Below, piece by piece: positions 25,925-63,991 of a stretch of DNA of 64,000 bases. Made by a program: the position numbers and the translations under genes. The notes under the pieces were generated by a model. That model saw only the letters and a program-made list of their open reading frames with translations. It was not told where the DNA came from and searched no databases. Each line of letters opens with the position of its first letter. Positions within the stretch are counted from its first letter, which is position 1. The stretch comes from Artemia franciscana (Eukaryota > Arthropoda > Branchiopoda > Anostraca > Artemiidae), in contig NC_088868.1 in NCBI RefSeq assembly GCF_032884065.1, positions 7,212,758 to 7,276,757 of the forward strand, in the 5' to 3' direction.

Positions 25925-26815
25925 TAAACAAGAGCTAATAGCTCATATGGTACTTGTGACGAGAGATCGGATCCGGTCCGGTTATGTCAATCATGCATCT
26001 AGAGCTTGTGCTTATTCTCGAATTCGCCAAAGCACTAGAAATCCCCCATCCCCCGAAGAGATCGCATCTGATCCGGTTATGTCAACCACGTATCTAGAAC
26101 TTGTGCTTATTATTTCCATCAAGTTTCACCCCAATCTCTTCACTCTAAGCGTTTTCCAAGATTTCCGTTTCAGCCCTCCACCCCCGAATGTGCCCGGATC
26201 CAATTCGAATTGAAAAAAGAAACATCTGAGACATGATATCTTTCTATATATCAAGTTTCATTAAGATCCGATCACCCGCTCGTAAGTTAAAATGCCTCAT
26301 TTTTCTAATTATTCCTAATTAACTGTCCTTCTACTCCAACCCCCGATGGTCGAATCGGGGAAGTGACTATTTCTAATTTAATCTGGTCCGGTCCCCAATA
26401 CGTGTGCCAACTTTCAGCGATCGCTATTTTGATCACTTATCTACAAACTGAATTTCTTCATGTAAAAACTAAAAATTTGGGTGGTCCGGGATTCGAAACC
26501 GAGACCTCTCGCACCCTAAATGAGAATCATACCACTAGACCAACAATCCACACTTAAGAACAACAATCATTTGCTTTGTCAGCAAATAAAATTCTTCTCA
26601 ACTATCAAGTTCGCTCGCTCCCCCCCCCCAGATGGTCGAATAGGGGAAGCGACTATTTCTAATTTAATCTGGCCTGGTCCCTGATATGCCTGCCAACTTT
26701 CATCGTCCTAGCTTATCTGGAAGTGCCCGAACTAGCAAAATCGGGACCGAGAGACTGACAGAAATTGCGATTACTATATGTCACTTCGTAAATACCAAGT
26801 GCCATAAAAATATAG
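25925..26815 (+). mobile_element. Short 'S' element with terminal inverted repeats
   Basis: It starts aacaagagctaatagctcat and ends caagtgccataaaaata, the same terminal sequences that bound the large array at 46018-48485. The termini contain a short inverted pair (atggyacttg / caagtgccat). Inside are one S-repeat unit (about 26105-26330) and a tRNA-like segment. No coding capacity. This looks like a short non-autonomous member of the family amplified at 46-48 kb. Confidence 0.7.
26479..26549 (-). tRNA. tRNA-Pro(AGG)-like pseudogene
   Basis: The 71-base reverse complement follows tRNA-Pro closely: D-arm text ttggtctagtggtatgat, anticodon loop ttagggt with anticodon AGG, and T-loop ttcgaat. 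Acceptor pairing is only 5 of 7, the anticodon stem has a mismatch and a wobble, and the T-stem has one mismatch and a wobble, so it is probably inactive. It sits within the S element, which suggests a captured tRNA or a tRNA-derived module. Confidence 0.7.
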
Positions 26816-27345
26816 AGGGTACTTGTCTACTTTATTCATCATCAGAACAAATTTACTCCATTCAAATGTCAAACCAGATGGCCACCGTATCTGTATTTTG
26901 TTTAAACTTGCAACACAAAATCAAATATTCGGTGCCTGTCTAGTTCATTCACCATTGCATCAAAGTCTATTCCCTTCAAAAAAAAATTAGCTGGTGGCTT
27001 ATCTAAAAGACAGTTCCTACTCCAATATTTCACGCACTCGAATATTTTCTTCGGGGGGAAGCGTTCTTTGCCTTTTCAGCATTTTCCTTAAATATTTGTG
27101 GTTCGCTCTAAAGAAAAGAGGTGGTTATCTACTTGAAACATTCACTTTGTTTTTTCAGTATTTACGCTTGGCCTTAAAAAGCTCATTTTTTATCGTTTTT
27201 TTAAGACTATCACAAGCCAATGCGGTTTAAGAAATTATCCAAGTTGTTGTATAACTTAAATATCGTCAAAAGAGTTAAACCACCATACCTGTCTTTTAAT
27301 TTATTGAATGCTTATATCACCAGAACAAATGATAGTTTGAATAAT
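26816..27345. other. Downstream flank of the BUD22-family gene
   Basis: AT-rich sequence with no supported gene. The plus-strand frame at 27220-27594 overlaps the 3' end of the BUD22-like gene in antisense and is a shadow. Confidence 0.5.
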
Positions 27346-28911
27346 TTATTCGTCATCAAAACGAATTTTCTTCCCTTCAAAAGAGTTAATCATAATTTCT
27401 TTCTGTTTTCGCTTCGCTGCCCAGCTTGGATGCAAATTCTCTTCCACTTGAACCGCAACAGGCTTCTCAATTTTTCTAAACTTTTCACTTTTTACTTCCT
27501 CACTTTTATCACGGAAATTCATATGCTTAGAATCGTTCCTTCCACCAAGCGTAACAAAATTCGAGTCAAGTTTTTTACTATTTCGACGGTCTGAGTTGAA
27601 TCGATTCGTGATAATTTTTTTGCCAGGTGTAGGAGCTTCAATATCATTATCCACGTTTCCACCAAGGAAAAACGCATCTGTTGGAACATGATTCTCCCTT
27701 TTACTTGGTTCTTCGTTCTTTTTACTTACTAAATCATCAATAGTGTCACTATTAACTTTATCTAAATGCAAGCGTTTAACCGTGAGAGCGCCTTCACTAC
27801 GCTCAATAACGGAGTCTTTTGACAAAAGTGATTTCCAGTCAACATTTCTTTTGTCGTTCTTCTTCTTCTTCTTCTTAGTTGGTTTTGCTTTAACAGAATC
27901 TTTAAGAATCTCTAATTTCGACTGAAAATCAGCATTACTTTCATCAGAGCCACTGGCAATATTATCATTTTGCTTTGAAGAGCCTTCAGCATCAGAATAT
28001 TCTGAATCCTCAGCAGCAGAATAGCTTGCCTCAGAGGGCGGCCGGCGAACATAACGCCCAGCTTCAACTGTTTCCTCATTACTGTTTGAATCATAACCTT
28101 CAGAATCTCCTGAATTCTCAGCATCAGAGTAACTTGTTTCAGAAGGCGGCTTGCAAACAAAAAGACCGGCTTCAACTGCTTCCTCGCCACTGCTACGGTC
28201 ATAAGCTTCACTAGCATCCCACTTATTCTCATTTTTATTACCTTTTCTGAAATTTATGTCTTTTTCAGAAGCGTTAATTTTAGCAAGATTTTTCTGGGAT
28301 GTCAACTTTATTTTTGGAATCATTTTTTCAATACTTATATTATTAATCTGATTATCACTATTTGTTTTATTTTCGTTTTTTCCTTTTTTCTTAGAGTAAC
28401 GAACTCCCAAGGCCTTAACAAGCATAAGAACGCGTTCTTTTTTCACGTTATAGCATTCATAAAACAACGTGACTTTACTTTGAACAAATTTATGTGCAGA
28501 AAGCCTCGCCAGAGCCCTCTGCTCGGTCGGCATAAATTGCATTTGTTTCTCCAATTCCGATGGCGTTAGCTTTGAACAAAGCGCAAATTTAGAGACTAAG
28601 TCTGGATGCACCTTTTTCATCACCTGAAGCTCTTCAACTAATCTCTCAGCACGTCGATGGTACTTTCCTGCGTCTGCCCCTTTTCTAGAACGCCATTTTG
28701 GCAAAGTCTTCGATACTTTATTAATTACCCATAGGCGAGCTCTATTCACATCTTTTCTCATTTTAACTATATAACAATTCACATCTAACTTAGTCAATTC
28801 ATTTTGGACAACTTCCTTGACGTTACCATTTTTATTTAAATTACTAGATGGCGCAGATGGCAAATCACCAATAGGAGACCCAGACGCGACAGCTACATCA
28901 CTTTTAGTCAT
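27346..28911 (-). CDS. SRFBP1: BUD22 / SRFBP1-family protein
   Basis: The 521-residue intronless ORF matches the BUD22/serum-response-factor-binding-protein-1 family. The N-terminal helical region (about residues 32-170) has the MRKDVNRARLWVINK segment, an RRAERLVEELQVMKK segment and TEQRALARLSAHKFVQSK. The C-terminus (about 411-521) has DAFFLGG and the hallmark ending LHPSWAAKRKQKE..FEGKKIRFDD. Yeast Bud22 acts in the nucleolus in 18S rRNA maturation; vertebrate SRFBP1 binds SRF. The middle is acidic and Ser-rich, with a Lys-rich stretch at about 343-355 (possible nuclear signal). Residues 236-272 and 273-309 are an internal tandem duplication. The start is well placed: A at -3, and the frame closes 14 codons upstream. 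The ATG lies 2 bases after the ENY2 stop. AATAAA overlaps its own stop codon. Confidence 0.9.
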   Translation of the reverse strand: MTKSDVAVASGSPIGDLPSAPSSNLNKNGNVKEVVQNELTKLDVNCYIVKMRKDVNRARLWVINKVSKTLPKWRSRKGADAGKYHRRAERLVEELQVMKKVHPDLVSKFALCSKLTPSELEKQMQFMPTEQRALARLSAHKFVQSKVTLFYECYNVKKERVLMLVKALGVRYSKKKGKNENKTNSDNQINNISIEKMIPKIKLTSQKNLAKINASEKDINFRKGNKNENKWDASEAYDRSSGEEAVEAGLFVCKPPSETSYSDAENSGDSEGYDSNSNEETVEAGRYVRRPPSEASYSAAEDSEYSDAEGSSKQNDNIASGSDESNADFQSKLEILKDSVKAKPTKKKKKKNDKRNVDWKSLLSKDSVIERSEGALTVKRLHLDKVNSDTIDDLVSKKNEEPSKRENHVPTDAFFLGGNVDNDIEAPTPGKKIITNRFNSDRRNSKKLDSNFVTLGGRNDSKHMNFRDKSEEVKSEKFRKIEKPVAVQVEENLHPSWAAKRKQKEIMINSFEGKKIRFDDE

Positions 28912-28913
28912 TA

Positions 28914-28993
28914 TTACTGTGAACTCGTTTGCTCGATTAAAAAGGCTTTGATCTTATCCAACAGTTCACGCTTGACAGAATCGGGAATACTCG
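28914..28993 (-). CDS. ENY2: ENY2, last coding exon
   Basis: After an acceptor (atattttag) the exon completes a split Ala codon and encodes SIPDSVKRELLDKIKAFLIE followed by QTSSQ and TAA. This matches the C-terminal helix of ENY2/Sus1/e(y)2, a small helical protein that wraps the Sgf11-type helix in the SAGA deubiquitinase module and binds the GANP/Sac3 scaffold in TREX-2 mRNA export. The intron phase (one base plus two) fits the donor at 35265 exactly. The stop region reads TAATAATG: a second in-frame TAA overlaps the start codon of the downstream BUD22-family ORF, so no 3' UTR or promoter separates the two. Total recovered ENY2 is about 96 residues, against roughly 100 in animals. Confidence 0.92.
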
Positions 28994-29164
28994 CTAAAAT
29001 ATAAATTCAAGAATAAAAACCTGCCCAAACATATATTTACAATAAAAGTTAGGCGTTCAAAGAGACTATTAGGGGCTAGGCTATTGTCTTTGATAAGTCC
29101 TAGGTTGATGAATATGGTAGTGGGAAAAATACTTTATCAGGTTGCCAAAAACAAGATTAGTTCA

Positions 29165-29480
29165 ATCAGGAAATTAAATAAAAAAAACTAATTTTTTTAG
29201 CTGAAAGTAAGGAGCGACATTAAAACTTAAAACGAACAGAAATTACTCCGTATATAAAATGGGTTGTCCCCTCCGCAATCCCTCGCTCTTTACGCTAAAG
29301 CTTTTAATTGTTTTAAAAAGTAGAATTGTGGCAAAGAGTCAGACTTTAGCGTAAAGAGCGAGGGATTGCGGAGGGGACAACCCATTTTATATACGGAGGA
29401 ATTTCTATTCGTTTTAAGTTTTAATGTCGCTCCTTACTTTCAGCTAAAAAAAATAGTTTTATTTATTTAATTTCTGAACG
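29165..29480. repeat. Near-perfect foldback with about 102-130-bp arms
   Basis: Arms at 29199-29300 and 29344-29445 are almost exact inverted copies (ctgaaagtaaggagcgacat ... tacgctaaag and its reverse), separated by about 43 bases. Weaker pairing extends the stem outwards to about 29170 and 29477. The arms contain the tctttacgctaaag motif seen in every copy of the long repeat. Confidence 0.9.
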
Positions 29481-29896
29481 TTTTTGAATTAATGCATGTT
29501 CGGTTTTGGCTCTCCGCACATAAATTATTAAAATGAAATTTGTATATTAATTCTTTTTTTTGGCTAAATGGCTTTCTCTTAGTTTTGATCAGACGATTTT
29601 GAGAAATAAGGGGTGGAGAAGGAGGCCTAGTTGCCCTCCAATTTTTTGGTTGCTTAAAAAGGCAACTAGAACTTTTAATTTTTAACGAACGTTTTTATTA
29701 GTAGAAAATATACGTAACTTATAAATTAACAACTTACGTAACAAACTTTCATAATCTTATATTTTTATTATGTATACATGGGGGTTTGTATCCTCGTTAA
29801 TACCTCGCTCTTTTCACTAAATCTTAAGTTTTGTCCCAATTCTTTAAGAATGACCCCTGAATCAGAAAAGCCGTAGAATAAATAGTTGAAATTACT

Positions 29897-29970
29897 AAAA
29901 ATACTTTAGCATAAAGAGCGAGGTATTTATCTCCTCCTAAATACCTCGCTCTTTATGCTAAAGTATTTTT
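29897..29970. repeat. Perfect 33-bp hairpin
   Basis: Arms 29897-29929 and 29938-29970 are exact inverted repeats (core ctttagcataaagagcgagg) with an 8-base loop tctcctcc. It lies in the second foldback of copy C. Confidence 0.95.
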
Positions 29971-30960
29971 GGAACCCATCATATGCGTAATAATCTCTGT
30001 TCGTTTTAAGTTTCAATGCTACTCCTTCCTTTCATTTGAAAAAACGTTTTCATGTTTATTTTTCATTGTTTGCTTATAGTAATGCTAGAAAATCATGCGC
30101 CCTTTTCCTTGAATTTTTCTTCCCCCATGACAGATTCCTCCAAGAAAACATCCTCCAACATAGCCCCCTCCCCTCAGCCTCACCCCCCAAACAAAATAAA
30201 ATCCCCCTGAAAACGTCTGCACACTTCCCAATAACCATTACTATATGTAAACACTGGTCAAAGTTTGTAACTTGCAGCCCCTCCCCCAGGGATTGTGGGG
30301 GAGTAAATCATCCCCAAATACATAGTTATTATGGTTTTCGACTAAGCTGAACAAAATGGCTATCTCCAAATTTTGATCCATTGACTTCGGGAAAAAAATG
30401 AGCGTGGGAGGGGGCCTAGATGCCCTCCAATTTTTTTGGTCACTTAAAAAGGGCACTAGAACTTCTCATTTCCGTTAGAATGAGCCCTCTTGCGACATTC
30501 TAGGACCACTTGGTCGATACGATGACCCCTGGGAAAAAGAAAAAAAAACAAAAAAAAACAAACAAATAAACACGCACCCGTGATTTGTCTTCTGGCAAAA
30601 AATACAAAATTCCACATTTTTGTAGATAGGAGCTTGAAACTTCTACAATAGGGTTCTCTGATACGCTGAATCTGATGGTGTGATTTTCGTTAAGATTCTA
30701 TGACTTTTAGGGAGTGTTCGCCCTATTTTCTTAAATAAGGCAAATTTTCTCAGGCTCGTAACTTTTGATGGGTAAGACTAAACTTGATGAAACTTATATA
30801 TTTAAAATCAGCATTAAAATGCGATTCTTTTGATGTAGCTATTGATATCAAAATTCAATTTTTTAGAATTTTGGTTACTATTGAGCCGGGTCGCTCTTTA
30901 CTACAGTTCGTTACCACGAACTGTTTGATATTGGTGAATCGTCTGCATATTCTCGGCGTG

Positions 30961-31855
30961 ATCAAATTCGGAATACTTTTAGGGCTAGAATTGGAGTGCC
31001 GGTAAAAGTTTGGCCACGAAGGTAAAGCTGTGAATCTGCAATTCGGGAACAGAGGGGGAAGGTGGGAGTTAAACTTTTAAAAAATTGTAATTACCATAGC
31101 CAAATTTGCTACGTTGTATAACAATTATGCGTCAAACAAACACATTTTCTAAGCAACCTTTACTTTATTGGAACAGAACATCCTAATTCAAAATAAAAAA
31201 AAACATACTTGGTCTATCTAAAAGAGATTAGTTCCCCTTCCCTCTTGAGACAAGATTTTGAATTATGTCACTTGGTTCTTTGGGACACATTTCAAAAACA
31301 TCAAACAGCTCTCCGCATAACTTCACAAGAGGGGGGGGGGTCTAAGGTAGAATTCAACCCTAAAATTAGTCAAAGGAATGTCGCGTGCACGTATGTAAAA
31401 AACACAAAATTTTCAGAAGTAAAAAAAAGAAGTAATTTCAGCTAGTAAAAAGAACCTAAGCCCAGTACCCCCACCCGTGCTTACAGCTTCAGACCAGCTC
31501 CCCCTTTTACTCATTAAGCTAGCCCTATTAACTTAAAATTCAAAAAATCTGCTAAAAATATTTTTGAGAACGCAAAAACGAGCTTTAGAAATTTTTTGAA
31601 CTGAAAACTTGGTCAACCAAAGAACCAGACTTTCATATTACCAGACATATATTTCATATATATATATACACCAAATATTACACAAAGCAGACTCTCATTT
31701 CGCGGTGGTACCCATAAAAAAAAAAAACCGCCCATGGTATAAAAACATAAAATTTTTACAACGAAAAGGAAAATAACTTCATGACTACTCTTCCGGTGAT
31801 GAAAGTAAATAATATGTAAACGATATGATAAAACTATTATTATAAAATATAATAC

Positions 31856-31858
<3 letters not shown>
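30961..31858. other. ENY2 intron, no other gene seen
   Basis: Unassigned intronic sequence. The plus-strand frame at 31209-31445 contains no recognisable motif. A short tatatata run is at about 31660. Confidence 0.45.

Positions 31859-31951
<93 letters not shown>
31859..31951. repeat. (AT)n microsatellite
   Basis: About 92 bases of AT dinucleotide within the ENY2 intron; the minus-strand frame of repeated Ile-Tyr is its translation. Confidence 0.98.
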
Positions 31952-31954
<3 letters not shown>

Positions 31955-32254
31955 ATGTAAAGTAATTAATATGAAAGTAAATAAACTAAATAAATAAAAT
32001 GTAAGCTTAACGTAAATATTACAAATAGATGGATTTCCCAATGAATACGCCAATTTAAAGACTCATAAAAAATAGGCGATTTTCAAGGAATTTCACATAC
32101 AACGTAGTACTCACAATTGCAGGATATTCCATTAGGCGACCTTTTTTTAAAAAGAAAACTCAGCTTAATTGACACCATTTGAAGCTTAGTGTTTGCTAAC
32201 TAGATATATAACTTAATATAACTATATAACTTAAATATCGATAGATCGATATAT

Positions 32255-32416
32255 AAATGACGATGGGGACACAGGAAATGTTTGATTAGCAATCACCATC
32301 AACAAAGCTCAAGGGCAATCATTAGAATAATGAGGTATAGATCTGAATACGGATTGTTTTTCCCATGGACAATTATATGTTGCATGCTCAAGAGTCGGTA
32401 AACCTGACAATCTATC
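32255..32416 (+). pseudogene. Helitron/Pif1-type helicase C-terminal relic
   Basis: From 32289 the plus strand reads AITINKAQGQSLE, two stop codons, then GIDLNTDC and FSHGQLYVACSRVGKPDNL. This is the conserved C-terminal pair of motifs of Pif1-family helicases as found in Helitron RepHel proteins and their relatives (T-I-N-K-x-Q-G-Q ... F-x-H-G-Q-L-Y-V-A-x-S-R-V). The adjacent stops and short length mark it as dead. It is flanked by two direct copies of a roughly 24-bp sequence (gtgtttgctaactagatat at about 32187 and 32422). A decayed Helitron is more likely than a host PIF1 gene. Confidence 0.8.
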
Positions 32417-32449
32417 AAGCTTGGTGTTTGCTAACTAGATATTGAATAT

Positions 32450-35160
32450 CATCTCTACTCGCCACTACCCATCCCCAGCATGTAAGAACTTGGACAAGAG
32501 AATAAACTTGCTTAGATAAATTACTATACTTATCTTGAGAGATAAATTGCTACAACGAGATAATTAAAGATTTAATTAAATTCTGGATCACCGCCACGCT
32601 TTGACCAATTTGAAAGATTAGGTTCATTTGGCAGTTTGAGGGTCTGCTCCTGTAGTCCATTATTATAAATTATTGGTTATTACCTTTGGCCTCAAATGTC
32701 GAATAACAAGAAATTATGCCTCTAAACTGATTGTAATATATAAAAGAGGTTAATATTGCAGTCTTTTTCACATACAGCAATACAATTTACTTTAATTCTG
32801 GATTGATTATAGTGAATTCTTTATTAATAGTGAAGTTTAAACTAAACCATCACGTACTCAAATTAAATTTTAAGCTGCTCCATTCTGACAGAAAAACTGA
32901 TAAGCCTAAATTCAATTTGACAAGGAAATAAGAGCAGTTCCTTATTTTCGATTGTAGTGGATTAATAAATTAAATTCAGCTTAAATTAAAATAAGACTAA
33001 GCATTTAATTAAAGTTCTGAGTCACTGTCATGTTGACAAAAATGACCATTAAAGTTAATTTGGCAGTTTGTGGATGCGTTCCTGAATATAATTATTATAA
33101 ATTACTTGTTATTATCTTGGCTCTATAATGCCAGCTACCAGGAAATCAAACCCCTAAAATGGTTACAACATATAAAACCGGTTAACATTGGAGTCGTTTT
33201 GCACTTACGGCAATTCACTTTGCTTAAATTCTGGATTAATTAAATTAAATTCTGGACTGGTTAAATTAGACTCTGGATCAACAATGAAATTTCAACTAAA
33301 CCATCAGGTACTTAATTAAATTTTAGGCAATCTAATCTGAAAGAAAAAGTGGCAAGTTTCAACTAATTTCGTATCTTTTGAGTTTTAATATCAAGTAATT
33401 TGATAAGAAGAAACAAATTCCGGCTTATAATGAAATGATTAAATTTAAACTAAATTATCATGATTTAATAATTAAACGTTTGATGGAAACAATAATTAAA
33501 CATTAGCAATCAGGTACTTATTTAAATCTTAGGCAACTCTAATCGGAAAGAAAAACTGGCATGTTTCAACTAATTTGGTATCTTTGAGTTTTAATATCAA
33601 GTAATTTGATAAGAAGAAATAAATTCCGGCTTATAATGAAATGATTAAATTTAAATTAAATTATCGTGATTTAATAATTAAACGTTTGATGGAAACAATA
33701 ATTAAACATTAACAATCAGGTACTTAATTAAATCTTAGGCAACACTAATTTGAGAGAAAAACTGGCATGTTTCAACTAATTTGGTATCTTTGAGTTTTAA
33801 TATCAAGTAATTTGATAAGTTGAAATAAAATCCAGCTTAGAATGAAATAATTAAATTAAAATTAAATTATCGTGATTCAATAATTAAACATTTGATTGAT
33901 TTCCTGGCTGCAGTAAAAATCTTTTTCAAAAGACTGGCTCTTAAAATGTATTCGGCAGTTTGAGTCTTGAGTCTTAAAGCAACTTGAGTCTCAACAACTG
34001 AAGACGTTAAATGTCTCACTTTCTGAATTTGCTGCTTGTTATTGACTGTGACTTAATTGTATCTACATTAACAGATCCTTAAAATCTAAGTTAAGCATTG
34101 TTCTATACAAAAAAAAACTAATTAAAAAAATTAACTTGCAACTTAAATTAGGATAATTAAATTCACATTAAACTATTTAAACTAAATAATTATGCATTCA
34201 ATTAAATTCTGGATCGATACCAGGTTTTGATATCCTCAAAACAATTATCATTAATTTCTTGTCAATATATTTAGCCTAAAATGGCAGGTAACAATAAATT
34301 TAGGCACTAAAATACTTTTAGCACATAAAAAGGACTAACATTTCAGGCCATTATATATTCTTGACAATAAAAATTGCTTATATCTTTGAGTTGTTTGTTA
34401 TTGTTATTGAGTTGGAATGAACATACTAGAAAATAATTGATCATCATTAATTATAATTGAATTGTGAAACACACATTGAGCCTTAATATTATTCTGCTGT
34501 AGGTGTTTTTTTATCCATTGAACTTAATTTTATAGATTAGATATACGCTGCAAGTTAAATTTAAATATTGTTCAAGCCACAATAGATAACTAATAAAATT
34601 GAATTCTAACTTGAATTGAAACAATTAAATTACATCATAACTTAATGTCATCTTGATTTGACATAGCCTATAAATTCAATTTAAATATCAGTCTAGACCA
34701 AATGATTAAATTCCAACTAAACTATCTCCATTAAACCTAAGCCCTTCATTACATTATGTACTATGGTCCGATTTTTACGGATAAATAGCCCTTTAAATTA
34801 ATGAGACATTTGATTCTGAATCTTAACCAATTCGAGAAATTAAATGTTTCACTTTCAAAGTTTTTTTTTTTTATTCGTCTTCACAATGGCCGTTTGACTT
34901 CGAATTAAATTTAAAGACTGTTCTATACAAAACAATGAATTAAATCAAATTCGGGTCACTTTGAAAAAATTACTTTCTTTAATAATTGTACCTTTTTTAC
35001 ACATTGGAAATTAATGCCCTCTACAACTGACATATTCTTTCGACTTAATTTAAAAGCTCTTCTGACAAAATAATTAATTAATCAAGTTAAATTCTGGCTT
35101 AATTTAAAACAATTAAATTTGAATTTAAAAAAATTATGGGCGGTTATCCAATTATGATAG
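32450..35160. repeat. AT-rich intronic region with tandem duplications
   Basis: Extremely AT-rich sequence full of ttaaatt and aattaaa words. It includes a triplication of about 206 bp (block tcaagtaatttgataag at 33391, 33597 and 33803) and more diverged repetition at about 32580-33310. No coding potential is visible. It is all within the ENY2 intron. Confidence 0.75.
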
Positions 35161-35264
35161 AAAAATCAGCACTTCAAAAGATCGACACTGATCTATAAAA
35201 AAAAAATCTATTCTTTTATAAATCTATAGAAAAAGGGACAAAAACAATTTAAGAAAACAATCAC

Positions 35265-35410
35265 CTCTAGCTTCTTTTGTGATTTCCCCAATCAATGAGT
35301 CGACAGTGACGTTATCAACACCAGTCTTCTGTATCTTCTCCCTGCAGAGGAGTTTCATGCGATCACGCCAGCCACACTCGATCAATCTAGATCTCAACAG
35401 GTCTTTGAGT
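35265..35410 (-). CDS. ENY2: ENY2, central coding exon
   Basis: A 146-base exon with acceptor tttgttgcag and donor gtgatt. It completes an Arg codon and encodes LKDLLRSRLIECGWRDRMKL, then CREKIQKTGVDNVTVDSLI and GEITKEAR. The LIECGW core is the most conserved part of ENY2, and the rest tracks the metazoan protein without gaps. Phases at both ends match the neighbouring exons (two bases before, one base after). No stop or frameshift. The exon sits alone between two repeat-filled introns. Confidence 0.95.
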
Positions 35411-36335
35411 CTGCAACAAAAGACACGTTAGTTTCATCATTAATCCAGATAACTCGATTAGTCTAGATACCAAAATCTGGATCAATCTAGATTACTAGAT
35501 CAATCTAGAAACTCAATGAAGATCTCAACAGGTACTTAGGTCTGCAACAACAGACACTTTAACTTTATCAATTTTATTATCAATCTTGATCCATCTAAAT
35601 ACCTCAATCTTGACCAACCACTCTTTAAGTCAAACTATAAAACAAGTCCATTATAGATCAGTAATTTTTTTTATTTTTTGAGGGGATCCAATGGTCAAAT
35701 TCCCCCTACCCCCGACTCATCTGCGGATATGAGTTGCACAGTTTCTTTTCGAATTATCAAATAGGGAAAACAAGTGTATTTTTTTTATAGTGAAACTACC
35801 ATTAGAAGATGAGCAATTATCCTATGTGAAGGGGATTGCCCCCCCCCCAAGCCCTCTGATGTATTCGCTAAAGCTTAAATTGCATTTTATGAGTGTGATC
35901 AACACCAATAATATGCTGACACTTTAAGATATAGATTAGTACGCTTGGGGATAATGGCCGCCTCATATATAGGACGTTTTTGTTAGTTTTAAATTTCGAT
36001 ACCACTTTCGCTTCCATTAAACAAAAAAAAAAAAACATTGGGGAAAAGCTGCCCCGATTAAGCCTTCTTTCTTTCTGATGAAGTTTAGCTTTAACATTTC
36101 ATAAAAAAAATTGGGGTGGAGGATATCAACAACTATTCTCATGCAATCATTTTTTTTTATTCTACAGGGGGGAGGGGGCTGTTTTCACAACAGGAGCCAA
36201 CAGTTCATTGAAAAAATGCTGTTTCTAGGGGATGTATCTAAGCCCCTTCCACCTCTTTGCAGGTAAGCATATGCATAACCTTGTACTTCACACTCAAAGC
36301 ACTTGTACACACAGAGTTAAACTCAGCTAGTTTAA
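35411..36335. other. ENY2 intron, repeat fragments only
   Basis: Contains 'atcaatctagat' repeats just upstream of the exon (35380-35600) and a degraded version of the foldback motif of the long dispersed repeats (about 35810-36010, ctaaagctt and catatatagg). No gene. Confidence 0.5.
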
Positions 36336-39371: not shown

Positions 39372-39437
39372 CTATCCTTTTCTCCTTGCTCTACTAATTT
39401 CTGATTTAACACTGTCTGTGCCTTTAACTTCAAGTCA
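39372..39437 (-). CDS. ENY2: ENY2, first recognised coding exon
   Basis: A 66-base exon between a long poly-pyrimidine acceptor (T-run, tag) and a consensus donor gtaagt. After one base of a split codon it encodes DLKLKAQTVLNQ, then KLVEQGEKD, and two bases of the Arg codon completed at 35410. This matches the N-terminal helix of ENY2 (animal homologues have an A-I-N-Q-K-L-x-E-T-G-E core). Only a few residues and the start codon are missing, so a short upstream exon must exist; I could not locate it with confidence. Confidence 0.9.
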
Positions 39438-48590: not shown

Positions 48591-49295
48591 TGGGTAAAAT
48601 TCTAGTTAATTGACTTCTCACTATCTCAGAAAGGGTTTAGGTTAGGAAAATGAAACTTTCAGGGATGAATCTACAGACTAAAGTATGTCCCGGGAAGGTA
48701 TTTTGAAGCAACTACCTCTACTCCTTCTCCCTCTAGAGGGGCTTGACCTTTAAAAATATGTGTGTTACAAAAGTGAAACCTTGCAAAATAGGTCTTCTGC
48801 TTAATTGAAGTACATAAAGTTTGGTTATCATATTCAAAGTCCAGTGAAATTTCGTCAAAAAGCCACCAACAGACCAGAGAATTGAAGATTGTGTGATTTA
48901 AATGTGTTTGTCTAATTAGGCTAAACTTACAAGACCTCTGTCAAGAGATTTAGATAGTAAATGACTTCAGCATAGGCTTCAGTCTAGTCAAGGTTACTCT
49001 GCTGAATTTCATCGGCTGTCGAGTGAGGATTGGTTGTCTGAAGAATTATCTGGATCTAAAATCAAATTCTTTTGAAGAATTTTCCATGCAAAGCGAGCCG
49101 CGAAATAATATTCCCGATAGGTAAACGTACACAGGTTGTAAGCAGAAGAGGGGCGGGTGCCTGCCGCAAGAGCCGTACGTACCTGCTGGTATTTAGTTAC
49201 CCTTAAATTGCGGGGAATAGGTGAGCAGGTCCCGACGCTTCCCTTATACTTGTGTACGCTATCCGAAAATTGCGTTGAATGCTGTGACGTAAGCG

Positions 49296-50462
49296 ATGGG
49301 GACTCTCGTACGCAATGCTGTACTGAACTTTCTCACGCGATCCATGCAAGCGGGGAACAAAATTGAAAGCATTGTTAAGCGAGCTGTGGAGTTCTTTGAT
49401 CATGCTGAAATTCTTAGTGCGAAGGAGAAACTTATAACGCTTGCCAATGAGATTGGTTATGATTACGTCTATCGGAAAACGGCAAACGATTCTGATAACG
49501 TGATGGAAATGGCGAAAATCCTAGCCCTTTGCGCTAAAGAGAAAAAGCCCTTACCTACTTTCGTAATTTTTGATCCGCAGGAAGTGCCCACCTGCCCTGA
49601 TGAAGTCAGTGCCTGCGTGAGAATAAAAGTAAACGAGATGTGTCGAAAGTTTGATGCCGGATTAGGGGCTATCGCGGATAAGATCAAACTTGCATCTGAA
49701 CAGTGTGCTCAGCAGCTCGCCGGGGTATCGCAGCAATGTACTACCATAAGCGACGCTATTTCCCAGGGCTCACCCACTCCCCGTTCAGCAGCGAATCCGC
49801 CATCAAAGCCACTTTACTCGGTGGTTGTGAAAGCAAACGATATGCCGCCTGAGTTAACGTCCCCACAATCCCGGAAAGACTTCTTTGCAAAGGTTTGCCC
49901 TAGCGACGTAAGCTCCGATTCTCTTACTCTGAAACGTAGCAACGATGAATGGAAGATTCTTGTCCAGTCTCGAGATGCCGCTACCCAACTTGCAGAAGCA
50001 ATGAAAAGGAAGAACATAACCACTAAAGTCAAAGTTCCCCAGTTTGTCGGTATCATGAAAAGAGTACCCTCATCAGTTAGCGAGAGTGAACTCTGTCAAA
50101 TTGCTGGTTGCGACAAAGTGGCGCAATGCGGATCTACGAGAGCGTTCAAGTTATTCTATGCAAGTCGACAAACACTTGAAAACGCTATCGCGAACCCGCT
50201 GAAGATTTGTTTAGAACTGTTCAGGATTGAAGAGTTCCGCTTTCTACCGAGGAGGTGTTTCAAGTGCCATGCTGTTGGTCATTTAGCAGCTGACTGTTCG
50301 CAACCAGAAAGGTGTTCGCGCTGCGGTGGCGATGGTCACAGCTCTAGTAAGGACAACCCATGTAGTAATCCGCAAAAATGCCTAAACTGCGGCTCTAGTA
50401 GACACTCTTGCTACCATGCTGCTTGTCCCTTTAACAAAGCCCAGCCTAACACTAGCACGTAA
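49296..50462 (+). CDS. LINE ORF1, gag-like zinc-knuckle protein
   Basis: A 388-residue product. The start is the first ATG after an in-frame stop at 49290. The N-terminal half is helical and charged. A central region (about 195-290) resembles the RNA-binding part of Jockey/CR1-type ORF1 proteins, with SVVVKANDMP, SPQSRKDFF, DEWKILVQSRD and VPQFVGIMKRVP. The C-terminus carries three Cys/His knuckles: CFKCHAVGHLAADC (321-334, a canonical C-x2-C-x4-H-x4-C), 340-356 (C-x2-C-x4-H-x7-C) and 362-377 (C-x2-C-x4-H-x6-C). Such proteins coat the element RNA as nucleic-acid chaperones. The ORF is full length without a break. Its stop TAA is followed directly by the ATG of the endonuclease ORF in the same frame. 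Confidence 0.88.
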   Translation: MGTLVRNAVLNFLTRSMQAGNKIESIVKRAVEFFDHAEILSAKEKLITLANEIGYDYVYRKTANDSDNVMEMAKILALCAKEKKPLPTFVIFDPQEVPTCPDEVSACVRIKVNEMCRKFDAGLGAIADKIKLASEQCAQQLAGVSQQCTTISDAISQGSPTPRSAANPPSKPLYSVVVKANDMPPELTSPQSRKDFFAKVCPSDVSSDSLTLKRSNDEWKILVQSRDAATQLAEAMKRKNITTKVKVPQFVGIMKRVPSSVSESELCQIAGCDKVAQCGSTRAFKLFYASRQTLENAIANPLKICLELFRIEEFRFLPRRCFKCHAVGHLAADCSQPERCSRCGGDGHSSSKDNPCSNPQKCLNCGSSRHSCYHAACPFNKAQPNTST

Positions 50463-51224
50463 ATGGAAAATCGAATATTCTGCTGGAATATGAACGGTAA
50501 AGTGTTGGACAGAATCCCCCTTCTAACTGACCTTTCTAAAGAATATAACTGTATTTGCATACAGGAACACTTTCTGACCGATGATAGTGTAAACCTTCTA
50601 AAGTTTTCCTCGGATATGCATTACCTCGTTCAACCTGCGCGAAGATCTGGGACTCGGGGTCGTCCCTCTGGTGGCCTAGCCATAATCACGCGCTCTAACT
50701 CGGGGCCCCCCGTATGTGTCGAGCAGAATGAATGGTTCCAAGCTGCCAAAATGCATGGCGTGTTTTTCGTAAATGTTTATTTACCAACCAATTACAATGA
50801 CATCGCTTCAGAAAAGAAGTTTGCAAAAGCATGCCAGAAGCTCGGAAAGTGCCTCCTCAGTTTAGTCCAGAAATCATGCCCTGTTATAATTCTTGGTGAC
50901 TTTAACTGCAATCTCGACGATCATTCCTGCCCTCGGGCTGTACTATTGCTGAACGCCTTACCAAGCGGATTTAAAGTTGCTAAGAAGGATAAGTGCTATT
51001 CCTATATCAGTACCGCAAAAACCGTCTCAAATCTTGATCATGTAGTAACTTACAAACTGGACCTAGAGTCAGTCTCGGTTGGATCTGACGGTGCCTATTC
51101 GGATCATTTACCTCTCTCTTTTGCAATACCAGCCGTCAGTCCCCAGTGTGCTCCAAAAACCAAGCCTGAGCCAGCACGTGATTGGAAAAAAGTAGTCCGT
51201 GAGCAGTTCCAGCTCAATTTGTGA
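50463..51224 (+). CDS. LINE ORF2 endonuclease domain (EEP/APE-like)
   Basis: A 253-residue N-terminal part of ORF2. All catalytic blocks of the exonuclease-endonuclease-phosphatase fold are visible: WNMNG (Asn9/Asn11), IQEH (Glu35), LGDFNCN (Asp146, Asn148), SNLDHVV (Asp192, His193) and the terminal YSDHLPLSF (Asp214, His215). The enzyme nicks target DNA to prime reverse transcription. The frame closes at TGA 51222, while the reverse transcriptase continues in another frame from about 51196, so ORF2 is broken by one net single-base shift. The ATG directly abuts the ORF1 stop codon. Confidence 0.9.
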   Translation: MENRIFCWNMNGKVLDRIPLLTDLSKEYNCICIQEHFLTDDSVNLLKFSSDMHYLVQPARRSGTRGRPSGGLAIITRSNSGPPVCVEQNEWFQAAKMHGVFFVNVYLPTNYNDIASEKKFAKACQKLGKCLLSLVQKSCPVIILGDFNCNLDDHSCPRAVLLLNALPSGFKVAKKDKCYSYISTAKTVSNLDHVVTYKLDLESVSVGSDGAYSDHLPLSFAIPAVSPQCAPKTKPEPARDWKKVVREQFQLNL

Positions 51225-53106
51225 ACAAATTTTGAAGAAAATTAAAGTGCCTTTCCACCTCCTACAGTGGGATTGTGACCTAACGGAAAGCGAGATACGC
51301 CTGCAACTGAACATGTATTTCTACGAAATTTGCCACTCCTTGAGAGTAGCTGAAAGGGTTGCTGTCCCATTACGTAGCGTCCGACGTGGGTCGCGAGTGA
51401 AAGGATGGGCCTCTAACAGTGAGCTTGTGAAGGCAAGAGCAGCTGCCAAGTTCTGGCTGGGGGTTTGGCACGAGTGCGACCGGCCAAAAAGCGGGGTAGT
51501 CAATGAATTGCGGGTTTATACAAAACGGCGGTTCGCGAAAGAGCTACGAAAACATCGTAGTAGCCTCAAACGGGAAACAGTTTCAAAAATCATTGAAAAC
51601 CCTAATTTGGTCTGGAAGCTCCGTGCCAGGCCTGTAGAAAGTACGGGACAAAATGCTAGTGATATAGATGAGGAAATATGGGTAGATTATTTTGCTGCTG
51701 AATTCTCCCCACCAGATGAAGTGAAAAATAAAAAGTTTAGCGAAGAGCTCGATCAGCTTATGACGAAAGAGCATAATTACCTCGTGATTTCTAGTGCGAA
51801 AATAACCCACCTTTGTCAAAAATTAAAGAAGAAATTATCCGCCGGTGCCGACCAAATCTGTGCTCTACACCTACTGAATGGTGGTCCAGTTCTATCGGAG
51901 CATTTAGCAATAGCTTACCAAATTATACTAACACATGGTATTGTACCGGACATTTTCTGTTTAGGTGTGATCACTCCAGTTTTGAAAAAGGGTAAACCTG
52001 CTCATGAACCATCGTCATACAGACCCATTACTGTATCATCTGTGTTTTACAAGCTATTTGAAAAGCTCATAATTTCGGACATTAAAGCTAGTTGTAAAGT
52101 GCCTCCCCACCAGTTTGGATTCCAAGCTGGCTTAGGATGTGCCCATGCCTTGCATGTAGCTGCAAATGTTCTACTGGATGCCCACATTTCGAAAGAAAGC
52201 CTAGCTATAGGTGAATATGATGTACAGCGGGCTTTTGATTCGGGTATCCATTCTCAGAATATGGTTGAGCTGAGAAAGTCCGGAGTTGACCGTGCTATTG
52301 TCAAACCCTTGAACGACATGTATAGTAGGCTCAAGGTCCGTATTAAACTGTCAGGTAAATTAAGTCGTAGGTTTGCTGTGGTGAAGAAAGGTATAAAACA
52401 GGGAGCCGTATCATCACCTGATCTGTTCAACAACAGCATATCGACGGCCCAGTCAAAAGTGGCCCCTTGCTGTATTTTTAAAGGCATTGACGTGTCCCTA
52501 GTTGGGTTTGCAGATGACCTTCTAAACTTTTCAAGAATTTTGTCTTCTTTGGAATCTAACTTTAAAATTTTGGAGATGGAGTATGATGAAATTGGGTTGA
52601 GTTTTAATGTGACAAAATGTGAAGTACTGTTATTTAACTGGAATGCCTCTCAACCCGAAATCCAACTAGGGTCACAGGTGGTCATGCCCTCTAAGTCAAT
52701 TGTATACCTGGGTCTGCCGATCGGTGAAACTCTTCAGCATACACGAGCACTGCTTGTAAAGCACATCGAGAAGAAGATCAGGTCAGCTTATGGAGCTTCG
52801 GTTTCCTCCAAGCGTAATCTAAATAGGTCGCTGCGTGCACAAATATTTGTTGCTGTTGCCTTACCCCATGTTCTTTACGTTTCGCCGTTCTGGAAGTTAC
52901 TTACAAATTCGAATAAAGTAACTATAAGAAGAATATTCTTCAGGTACCTCAAGTTCCTACTTGAGATGCCATTAAGAACAAGTAATTCTTACCTAACGAG
53001 GCGGTATTCAGTACCTGACCCATTTACTGCGGTGGAAGCGTGTCTTGAAAAGTACCGTGATAGAGTAGAAGCGAGTAACCACCAGTGGACCGCCATTCTT
53101 ACATAG
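51199..53106 (+). CDS. LINE ORF2 reverse transcriptase part
   Basis: About 635 codons, open from about 51196 (the nominal start is a GTG within the overlap, so this is a continuation, not an independent gene). Reverse-transcriptase motifs in order: SSYRPITVSSVFYKLFEKL (about 272-290), HQFGFQAGLG (304-313), motif A YDVQRAFD (Asp341, Asp347), motif B GIKQGAVSSPDLFN (398-411), motif C VGFADDLLNF (Asp439, Asp440) and LGLPIGETL further on. All catalytic aspartates are kept. The C-terminal 150 residues have no RNase H. It ends at TAG 53104. Net shift relative to the endonuclease frame is +1 within a 26-base window (51196-51221). Confidence 0.9.
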   Translation: MSSSSSICEQILKKIKVPFHLLQWDCDLTESEIRLQLNMYFYEICHSLRVAERVAVPLRSVRRGSRVKGWASNSELVKARAAAKFWLGVWHECDRPKSGVVNELRVYTKRRFAKELRKHRSSLKRETVSKIIENPNLVWKLRARPVESTGQNASDIDEEIWVDYFAAEFSPPDEVKNKKFSEELDQLMTKEHNYLVISSAKITHLCQKLKKKLSAGADQICALHLLNGGPVLSEHLAIAYQIILTHGIVPDIFCLGVITPVLKKGKPAHEPSSYRPITVSSVFYKLFEKLIISDIKASCKVPPHQFGFQAGLGCAHALHVAANVLLDAHISKESLAIGEYDVQRAFDSGIHSQNMVELRKSGVDRAIVKPLNDMYSRLKVRIKLSGKLSRRFAVVKKGIKQGAVSSPDLFNNSISTAQSKVAPCCIFKGIDVSLVGFADDLLNFSRILSSLESNFKILEMEYDEIGLSFNVTKCEVLLFNWNASQPEIQLGSQVVMPSKSIVYLGLPIGETLQHTRALLVKHIEKKIRSAYGASVSSKRNLNRSLRAQIFVAVALPHVLYVSPFWKLLTNSNKVTIRRIFFRYLKFLLEMPLRTSNSYLTRRYSVPDPFTAVEACLEKYRDRVEASNHQWTAILT

Positions 53107-63589: not shown

Positions 63590-63991
63590 TTACCCTGATT
63601 CTTCACTTGATCCTTCTGAACTGTTGACAGTTGTTGTCTCTGTTTCTTGTGAGACTAAGCTGGGTTTCGTTTGTGACTCCTCAGTTTTGCTAGAATGACT
63701 TGGCAACGCTGGTTGATTTGTTTGTTGAATGCTAATAACCTTCTCTTTTTCAGAAGCATCCTCACTTGCTTTCCGAGGGCCTTCGATAATTAAAACGCCA
63801 TCTGAAGAGATACTCCCTCTTATTTCCTCTGATTTAACTCCTTCTGGGATGTCATAGATACGTTTGAAATGTCTGAATACTCTACCGTGTTCATCGGGCT
63901 TTTCTTCGTGTTTGCCTTCGACTGTTATTACTTTGTCTGTGGTCTTGACAGTCAACTCTTCCGGTTTGAAATGATGAGCGTCAAGCGAAAT
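63590..63991 (-). CDS. Small heat shock protein, last exon (partial gene)
   Basis: An acceptor (attttttag, 64000-63992) opens a 133-codon exon that begins ISLDAHHFKPEEL and continues VKTTDKVITVEGKHEE, DEHGRVFRHFKRIYDIPEGV and ISSDGVLIIEGPRK. This is the second half of an alpha-crystallin domain with the usual animal signatures (H-F-x-P-E-E-L, G-K-H-E-E, D-E-H-G, S-x-D-G-V-L). After it come the I-x-I anchor ISI (within KVISIQQ) and a long Ser/Thr/Glu-rich tail of about 45 residues ending EESG. Family members are ATP-independent holdases forming large oligomers. The N-terminal exon(s) lie beyond the window. Crustacean small heat shock proteins of diapausing embryos are possible relatives, but the specific orthologue is not determined. 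Confidence 0.9.
   Translation of the reverse strand: MSLDAHHFKPEELTVKTTDKVITVEGKHEEKPDEHGRVFRHFKRIYDIPEGVKSEEIRGSISSDGVLIIEGPRKASEDASEKEKVISIQQTNQPALPSHSSKTEESQTKPSLVSQETETTTVNSSEGSSEESG

Follow-up and report, generated by a model that had tools for sequence, protein, structure and literature searches.

We find that the last exon of ENY2 and an open reading frame (ORF) of the BUD22/SRFBP1 family share one exon on the minus strand of the 64,000-nt window (i.e., the whole stretch of DNA that was analysed), where they are read in different frames and are separated by a spacer of 2 nt. With somewhat better than even confidence, we take ENY2 and BUD22 to be one dicistronic gene whose second protein would be reached mainly by leaky scanning. 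That is, both proteins probably come from one shared mRNA, the product of what would be a single transcription unit.

The anatomy favours such a gene, since both ORFs lie 2 nt apart within one exon, use different frames, are the sole copies found and are preceded by a first cistron that is poor in AUGs. The BUD22 ATG, which is the first one in exon 4 and carries an A at position -3, the intronless second cistron and the unstructured junction favour it as well. A dicistronic gene had already been proposed in a preliminary description of this DNA. The anatomical part of that proposal stands, while alternative promoters and isoforms retain a probability of their own, which is discussed below.

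Gene structure and the shared exon

The locus is composed of the following features.

39372..39437, minus strand: ENY2 exon 2, the first coding exon identified (tblastn with human ENY2, boundaries and phase; donor GATAG/GTAAGT)
35265..35410, minus strand: ENY2 exon 3 (tblastn, 55% identity, E=2e-16; boundaries CAG/ACTC ... AGAG/GTGATT)
28994..35264, minus strand: ENY2 intron 3, 6,271 nt (boundaries, repeats), which could house an internal BUD22 promoter
28914..28993, minus strand: coding part of ENY2 exon 4 (tblastn; acceptor TTTTAG/CGAG with 14/20 upstream pyrimidines; TAA at 28916-28914)
28909..28916, minus strand: junction TAATAATG, i.e., the ENY2 stop and a second in-frame stop that overlaps the BUD22 ATG at 28911-28909 (sequence and frames)
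27346..28911, minus strand: BUD22/SRFBP1 ORF, 521 codons in one exon (Pfam BUD22, single assembly match, Daphnia magna identity, alignment)

The phases of ENY2 exons 2-4 join without a break and yield 96 residues with the C-terminus ...KAFLIEQTSSQ. The joined protein matches Pfam EnY2 with E=4.3e-31, where residues 10-89 cover positions 4-83 of the profile's 83. With regard to the splice sites, both ends of exon 2 and the exon 3 acceptor look sound; the exon 3 donor (AGAG/GTGATT) is not strong. For the first coding exon, which would hold the start codon, the scans produced 1, 0 or (using looser rules) 7 candidates; none was chosen. Compared with its mollusc relative P0005, the missing exon would contribute about 5-10 codons.

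Both large introns contain repeated sequence. A decayed copy (81%) of the intron 2/exon 3 boundary is found at 35513-35570 (minus strand), 131 bp upstream of the true boundary, and represents a tandem duplication that covers the exon 3 acceptor and the first exon bases. In intron 3, a repeat search located a foldback element at 29170..29474, i.e., 131-nt arms of 97% complementarity around a 43-nt spacer, which ends 176 nt from exon 4; a 64-nt part of it recurs at 29981-30044 (about 80%). Elsewhere in the window, we observe a non-LTR retrotransposon (49293-53106, plus strand) with a zinc-knuckle ORF, an endonuclease ORF and a reverse-transcriptase ORF in that order. Its endonuclease ATG directly follows the zinc-knuckle stop in the same frame, and the reverse-transcriptase ORF overlaps the endonuclease end in another frame. 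A reading frame for a small heat-shock protein (HSP20/alpha-crystallin, E=1.4e-19) is located at 63593-63991 on the minus strand.

The preliminary description had placed ENY2 and BUD22 two bases apart in one exon and had reported a second ENY2 stop overlapping the downstream start. Both statements hold: the ENY2 frame ends with the TAA at 28916-28914, the BUD22 ATG starts at 28911, both proteins have Pfam matches above the cut-off, and the final A of the second in-frame ENY2 TAA (28913-28911) is the A of the BUD22 ATG. We also agree with its view that the downstream frame is closed 14 codons upstream and that the pair is no simple fusion. The open stretch of the BUD22 frame extends from 28953, i.e., 14 codons upstream of its ATG and with no further ATG in between, to the TAA at 27348-27346; a simple ENY2-BUD22 fusion is ruled out by the differing frames and the two in-frame ENY2 stops. 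A pseudogene of either ENY2 or BUD22 is likewise ruled out, given that both frames are intact and both domains conserved. The RNA of the junction is unstructured (z=+1.26), i.e., 183/200 shuffled sequences fold at least as well. The two reading frames are not a product of chance: both genes are conserved and ENY2 ends where P0005 does, within a residue. From this agreement of the C-termini it also follows that the BUD22 ORF did not truncate ENY2.

The BUD22 reading frame and its start

The BUD22 ORF matches Pfam BUD22 with E=1.6e-15 (57.9 bits, cut-off 37) and shows 34 and 36% identity with a Daphnia magna protein (tblastn), where the match begins at Daphnia residue 4. By the similarity of BUD22 alone, the DNA may come from a crustacean, perhaps a branchiopod. 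The gap-free alignment of residues 36-50 of the window protein with residues 4-18 of the Daphnia protein extends to the M of MRKDV, which both share. This homology to the Daphnia N-terminus implies that coding sequence precedes MRKDV. Since the ATG at 28911 is the only in-frame one upstream of residue 36, we place the BUD22 start there. A start at M51, as used by the mechanically derived ORF P0001, is ruled out by the same homology. The first 49 codons are also coding-like: using a score trained on the remainder of the same BUD22 ORF, an equally high value is reached by 1.7% of the 3,661 open control stretches (which overlap), and the chance of openness is 3.7% when measured on 49-codon stretches of intron 3. 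Between the initial MT and the part homologous to the Daphnia N-terminus, the window protein has some 30 additional residues (residues 3-35; 28905-28807, minus strand); no counterpart was found for them in the aligned relatives. A PDB search with the BUD22 alignment gave a single match, with E=0.68, to an unrelated chain.

A BUD22 profile search returned 44 proteins among the 7,999 scored candidates sharing most words, one of which is the window's own P0001. We compared 32 of the 43 non-self homologues, i.e., all but the vertebrate entries P0039-P0049; most of those compared are called Daphnia-like by similarity. Exactly MRK[DN]V is the start of 22, and in two more (P0034, P0038) the first residue has the same position but the letters differ. 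P0019 starts slightly later and P0037 as MIVSMRQ, while P0004 and P0020 carry extra residues just before the MRKDV position. The remaining four, namely the annotated Daphnia proteins P0029-P0031 and P0017, are continuous through the site. A start at MRKDV is little proof of an intron, because P0001 starts there although the window frame is open further up. The extra stretch occupies the same place in P0004 (21 residues) and P0020 (22 residues) and has a first V and a last Q in each; judged from these two protein sequences, it seems to be a phase-0 intron of 63-66 nt (GT...CAG) that was left unspliced. The window ORF is free of this stretch and reads gap-free across the putative intron site (QNELTKLDVNCYIVKMRKDV vs. 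VNRLEKLTLNNQIVRMRKDV in Daphnia magna).

Copy number in the assembly

We searched the whole assembly (1,270,528,402 bases, i.e., 1.27 Gb, in 6,468 contigs) for further copies of both genes. The window BUD22 protein has one match, which is the ORF described here (13/13 candidates scored), and the Daphnia magna BUD22 protein, used as a sensitivity check, finds the same ORF and nothing elsewhere (4/4 candidates scored). For the window ENY2 protein, just the three exons of this locus are recovered (4/4 candidates scored). Such searches score the best candidates alone, such that a diverged copy could escape. A search of the genome with Pfam BUD22 gave zero matches and carries no weight, since it missed the window copy too.

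With the EnY2 family, an extra stretch is reported on contig C9 (E=3.95). The true exon 4 scores worse (E=6.91) and exon 2 is missed, such that the E-value alone is not decisive. When compared directly, ENY2 and the C9 stretch show 26% identity over 31 residues (E=0.001 when only this 3-kb locus is searched). We do not count the C9 stretch as a second ENY2, though it might conceivably be an exon of a diverged ENY2 paralogue. A second BUD22 gene is rejected, as the searches with the window protein and the Daphnia protein both find one locus among the candidates scored. BUD22 is thus probably expressed from here: with a single copy found, a near-complete assembly would leave no other source of the protein.

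Ends of the mRNA and probable translation of BUD22 as a second cistron

A pattern scan for poly(A) signals gave the following sites of interest.

27300..27305, minus strand: AATAAA, possible poly(A) signal, starting 41 nt past the BUD22 stop
27345..27350, minus strand: AATAAA overlapping the BUD22 stop codon
28831..28836, minus strand: AATAAA within the BUD22 frame, starting 78 nt past the ENY2 stop, where an mRNA with ENY2 alone might end

The preliminary description had seen no room for a poly(A) site between the two genes. This is right for the 2 nt between the ORFs, which cannot house a promoter either, but the AATAAA at 28836-28831 lies inside the BUD22 frame and hence makes an ENY2-only mRNA that ends within BUD22 possible. 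The hexamer may be there by chance: the BUD22 ORF contains five of them before its stop, this one included, which is nothing out of the ordinary for AT-rich DNA. A lone tRNA-like match is found about 800 bp past the end of BUD22, at 26478-26549 on the minus strand (29.9 bits vs. the Rfam cut-off of 29).

The 291 nt of ENY2 exons 2-4 contain one ATG, GATCGCATGA, which is in frame with ENY2 and has a C at -3; the number of out-of-frame ATGs is zero. From base composition, 6.0 ATGs are expected (O/E 0.17; P=0.017 for at most one), and the mean number of out-of-frame ATGs in stretches of 97 codons from the BUD22 ORF is 4.8. When the ENY2 protein is kept fixed, zero out-of-frame ATGs are obtained in 5% (window codon usage), 12% (uniform usage) or 14% (own codons permuted) of the recodings, such that the scarcity of AUGs is suggestive only. 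The BUD22 ATG has an A at -3, and exon 4 shows zero ATGs before 28911.

The motif UGGGA forms the 18S-complementary core of TURBS-type termination-reinitiation. Reading exon 4 by eye, we found no TGGGA. Given a first ORF of about 100 codons and no UGGGA-type motif, leaky scanning would fit at least as well as reinitiation, with the latter perhaps helping. The likeness to termination-reinitiation sites that had been pointed out earlier thus extends to the overlap of stop and start, but neither to the motif nor to the length of the first ORF. With regard to the latter, a review cites, in the part consulted, the prediction that upstream ORFs of over 55 codons prevent reinitiation (PMC4705651).

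A dicistronic gene would work as follows. A single promoter upstream of ENY2 exon 1 would drive one pre-mRNA from which introns 1-3 are removed. The terminal exon would then comprise the end of ENY2, the 2 nt and the entire intronless BUD22 ORF, with cleavage past the AATAAA near 27305. The majority of ribosomes would translate the about 100 codons of ENY2, while a fraction would bypass the ENY2 AUG as well as the single weak internal AUG and start at the BUD22 AUG, i.e., by leaky scanning. Subunits that stop at the overlapping UAA may in addition reinitiate at the BUD22 AUG and add to the output.

Alternative explanations

The anatomy can also be explained by two nested, overlapping genes, where BUD22 is transcribed from a separate promoter within ENY2 intron 3 or exon 4. 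Exon 4 would then serve BUD22 as 5' leader only, and ENY2 would end at the internal AATAAA or at a shared 3' end. We consider this unlikely but not remote. Intron 3 is large enough (6,271 nt) to be a candidate host, a leader that starts in exon 4 would work because the BUD22 ATG is the first one there, and the internal AATAAA at 28836 does exist. Yet the latter is one of the five hexamers in the ORF, a usual finding for such DNA, and the foldback element at 29170-29474 leaves 176 nt before exon 4, in which no promoter-like feature was seen by eye. With one promoter but two isoforms, ENY2 would be made from exons 1-4 and BUD22 from an mRNA that joins exon 1 or 2 to exon 4 and bears a short upstream ORF. 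If exon 2 (or exon 1, if its phase fits) is joined to exon 4, translation would indeed run in a shifted frame into a TGA at 28968-28966, which leaves 54 nt up to the BUD22 ATG, and the resulting short ORF would permit reinitiation; the exon 3 donor, which is not strong, points the same way. However, both ends of exon 2 and the exon 3 acceptor look sound, and we saw nothing that marks the exons as skipped; we regard this isoform pair as improbable.

Finally, ENY2 and BUD22 could form an operon that is split into two mRNAs by spliced-leader trans-splicing, with the leader joined to an acceptor within ENY2 exon 4 or at its end. An AG in a fitting place ends at 28917 (CACAG/TAATAATG), but only 8/20 upstream positions are pyrimidines compared to 14/20 at the exon 4 acceptor. 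Further AGs of exon 4 at 28990, 28971, 28932 and 28924 have 11-12/20. The AG at 28844 reaches 14/20, but its use would delete the BUD22 ATG and leave an out-of-frame ATG as the first one, which rules it out as an alternative acceptor. Copepods and amphipods are known to use spliced-leader trans-splicing (PMC7986045; PMC4664967, both consulted in part), while operons are unreported in these groups according to the part of PMC7986045 consulted. We consider trans-splicing at this locus very improbable. The shared dicistronic mRNA remains our preferred reading.

Possible origin of the intronless BUD22 ORF

An intronless, sole-copy BUD22 behind an ENY2 with large introns suggests a cDNA intermediate. 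That is, the BUD22 introns may have been lost through cDNA, either because a retrocopy was inserted behind ENY2 and took the place of the parental gene, or because the 3' introns of an already shared transcript were lost in a cDNA-templated process. A comparison of 28995-28880 with 27345-26900 gave no shared exact 9- to 12-mer that could represent a target-site duplication, and no poly(A) remnant of a retrocopy was seen by eye; both could have decayed. An intron-bearing BUD22 source gene was not found in the assembly, from which it may have been lost. Scans of viral and prokaryote collections for relatives resulted in 31 and 88 pattern matches, none of which encodes a relative.

A stronger version is possible but doubtful: a cDNA-derived, intronless BUD22 would have become fixed behind ENY2, and the only BUD22 protein would obligatorily be the second cistron of the ENY2 mRNA. 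If true, the amount of a ribosome-biogenesis factor would depend on how many ribosomes scan past the AUG of ENY2, a SAGA/TREX-2 subunit, without initiating there (leaky scanning). The absence of BUD22 introns would then be a requirement, because an intron past the ENY2 stop would invite nonsense-mediated decay.

Relation to known systems

To our knowledge, few dicistronic genes that encode two housekeeping proteins have been firmly established in animals. A spacer of two bases with overlapping stop and start codons, between partners for which no other copy was found, would allow leaky scanning to be tested cleanly against reinitiation in a natural setting, and the locus would also test how a gene loses its introns and its promoter and yet survives as a passenger on its neighbour's mRNA. 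In practice, such a locus is a warning for annotation pipelines, in which either protein might be lost or merged with the other. Dicistronic genes whose first protein is short are already known, while the ENY2-BUD22 pair is likely new: we found no paper on ENY2 with BUD22/SRFBP1 as a dicistronic pair in the parts of the literature consulted, where subscription journals are thinly represented.

Drosophila e(y)2 is reportedly a retrocopy that took over from an intron-bearing source gene, as attributed to Krasnov et al. in 2005. In both cases an intronless copy is the working gene; at the present locus, in contrast, ENY2 has retained introns, and the intronless gene is its neighbour BUD22. As for translation, Wall et al. 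are said to have tied, in 2005, the translation of the second cistron in two Drosophila dicistronic transcripts to a first cistron without in-frame AUGs. The fly e(y)2 genes are CG15191 and CG14612.

Among Drosophila dicistronic genes and conserved uORF-mORF pairs, PMC2276209 lists, in the tables and parts consulted, snapin (CG9960/CG9958), Tim9b (CG12788/CG17767) and MOCS2, and the snapin pair is traced to a Daphnia EST; ENY2, BUD22, CG15191 and CG14612 are absent from these tables and parts. The fly pairs resemble ENY2-BUD22 in their short conserved first protein, and the same source gives five pairs of Misra et al. with first ORFs of 86-134 aa. They differ from it in that the ENY2 and BUD22 ORFs nearly touch and that one in-frame AUG is present in the first cistron.

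In vertebrates, the bicistronic RPP14-HTD2 mRNA likewise encodes a small RNA-processing protein first and a complete, unrelated protein downstream (PMC5932603, PMC4705651, each consulted in part). According to these parts, both ORFs have been reported on one mRNA, a role is reported for HTD2 and the arrangement has been conserved for 400 million years, whereas ENY2-BUD22 is known from its genomic anatomy alone. Also unlike RPP14-HTD2, the ENY2-BUD22 spacer is 2 nt and its stop and start codons overlap. The bicistronic loci of green algae that use leaky scanning (PMC11892635, in the part consulted) belong to algae rather than an animal. As far as ENY2 exons 2-4 show, they share with ENY2-BUD22 few AUGs before ORF 2, a weak internal AUG, a better context at the start of ORF 2 and a short spacer.
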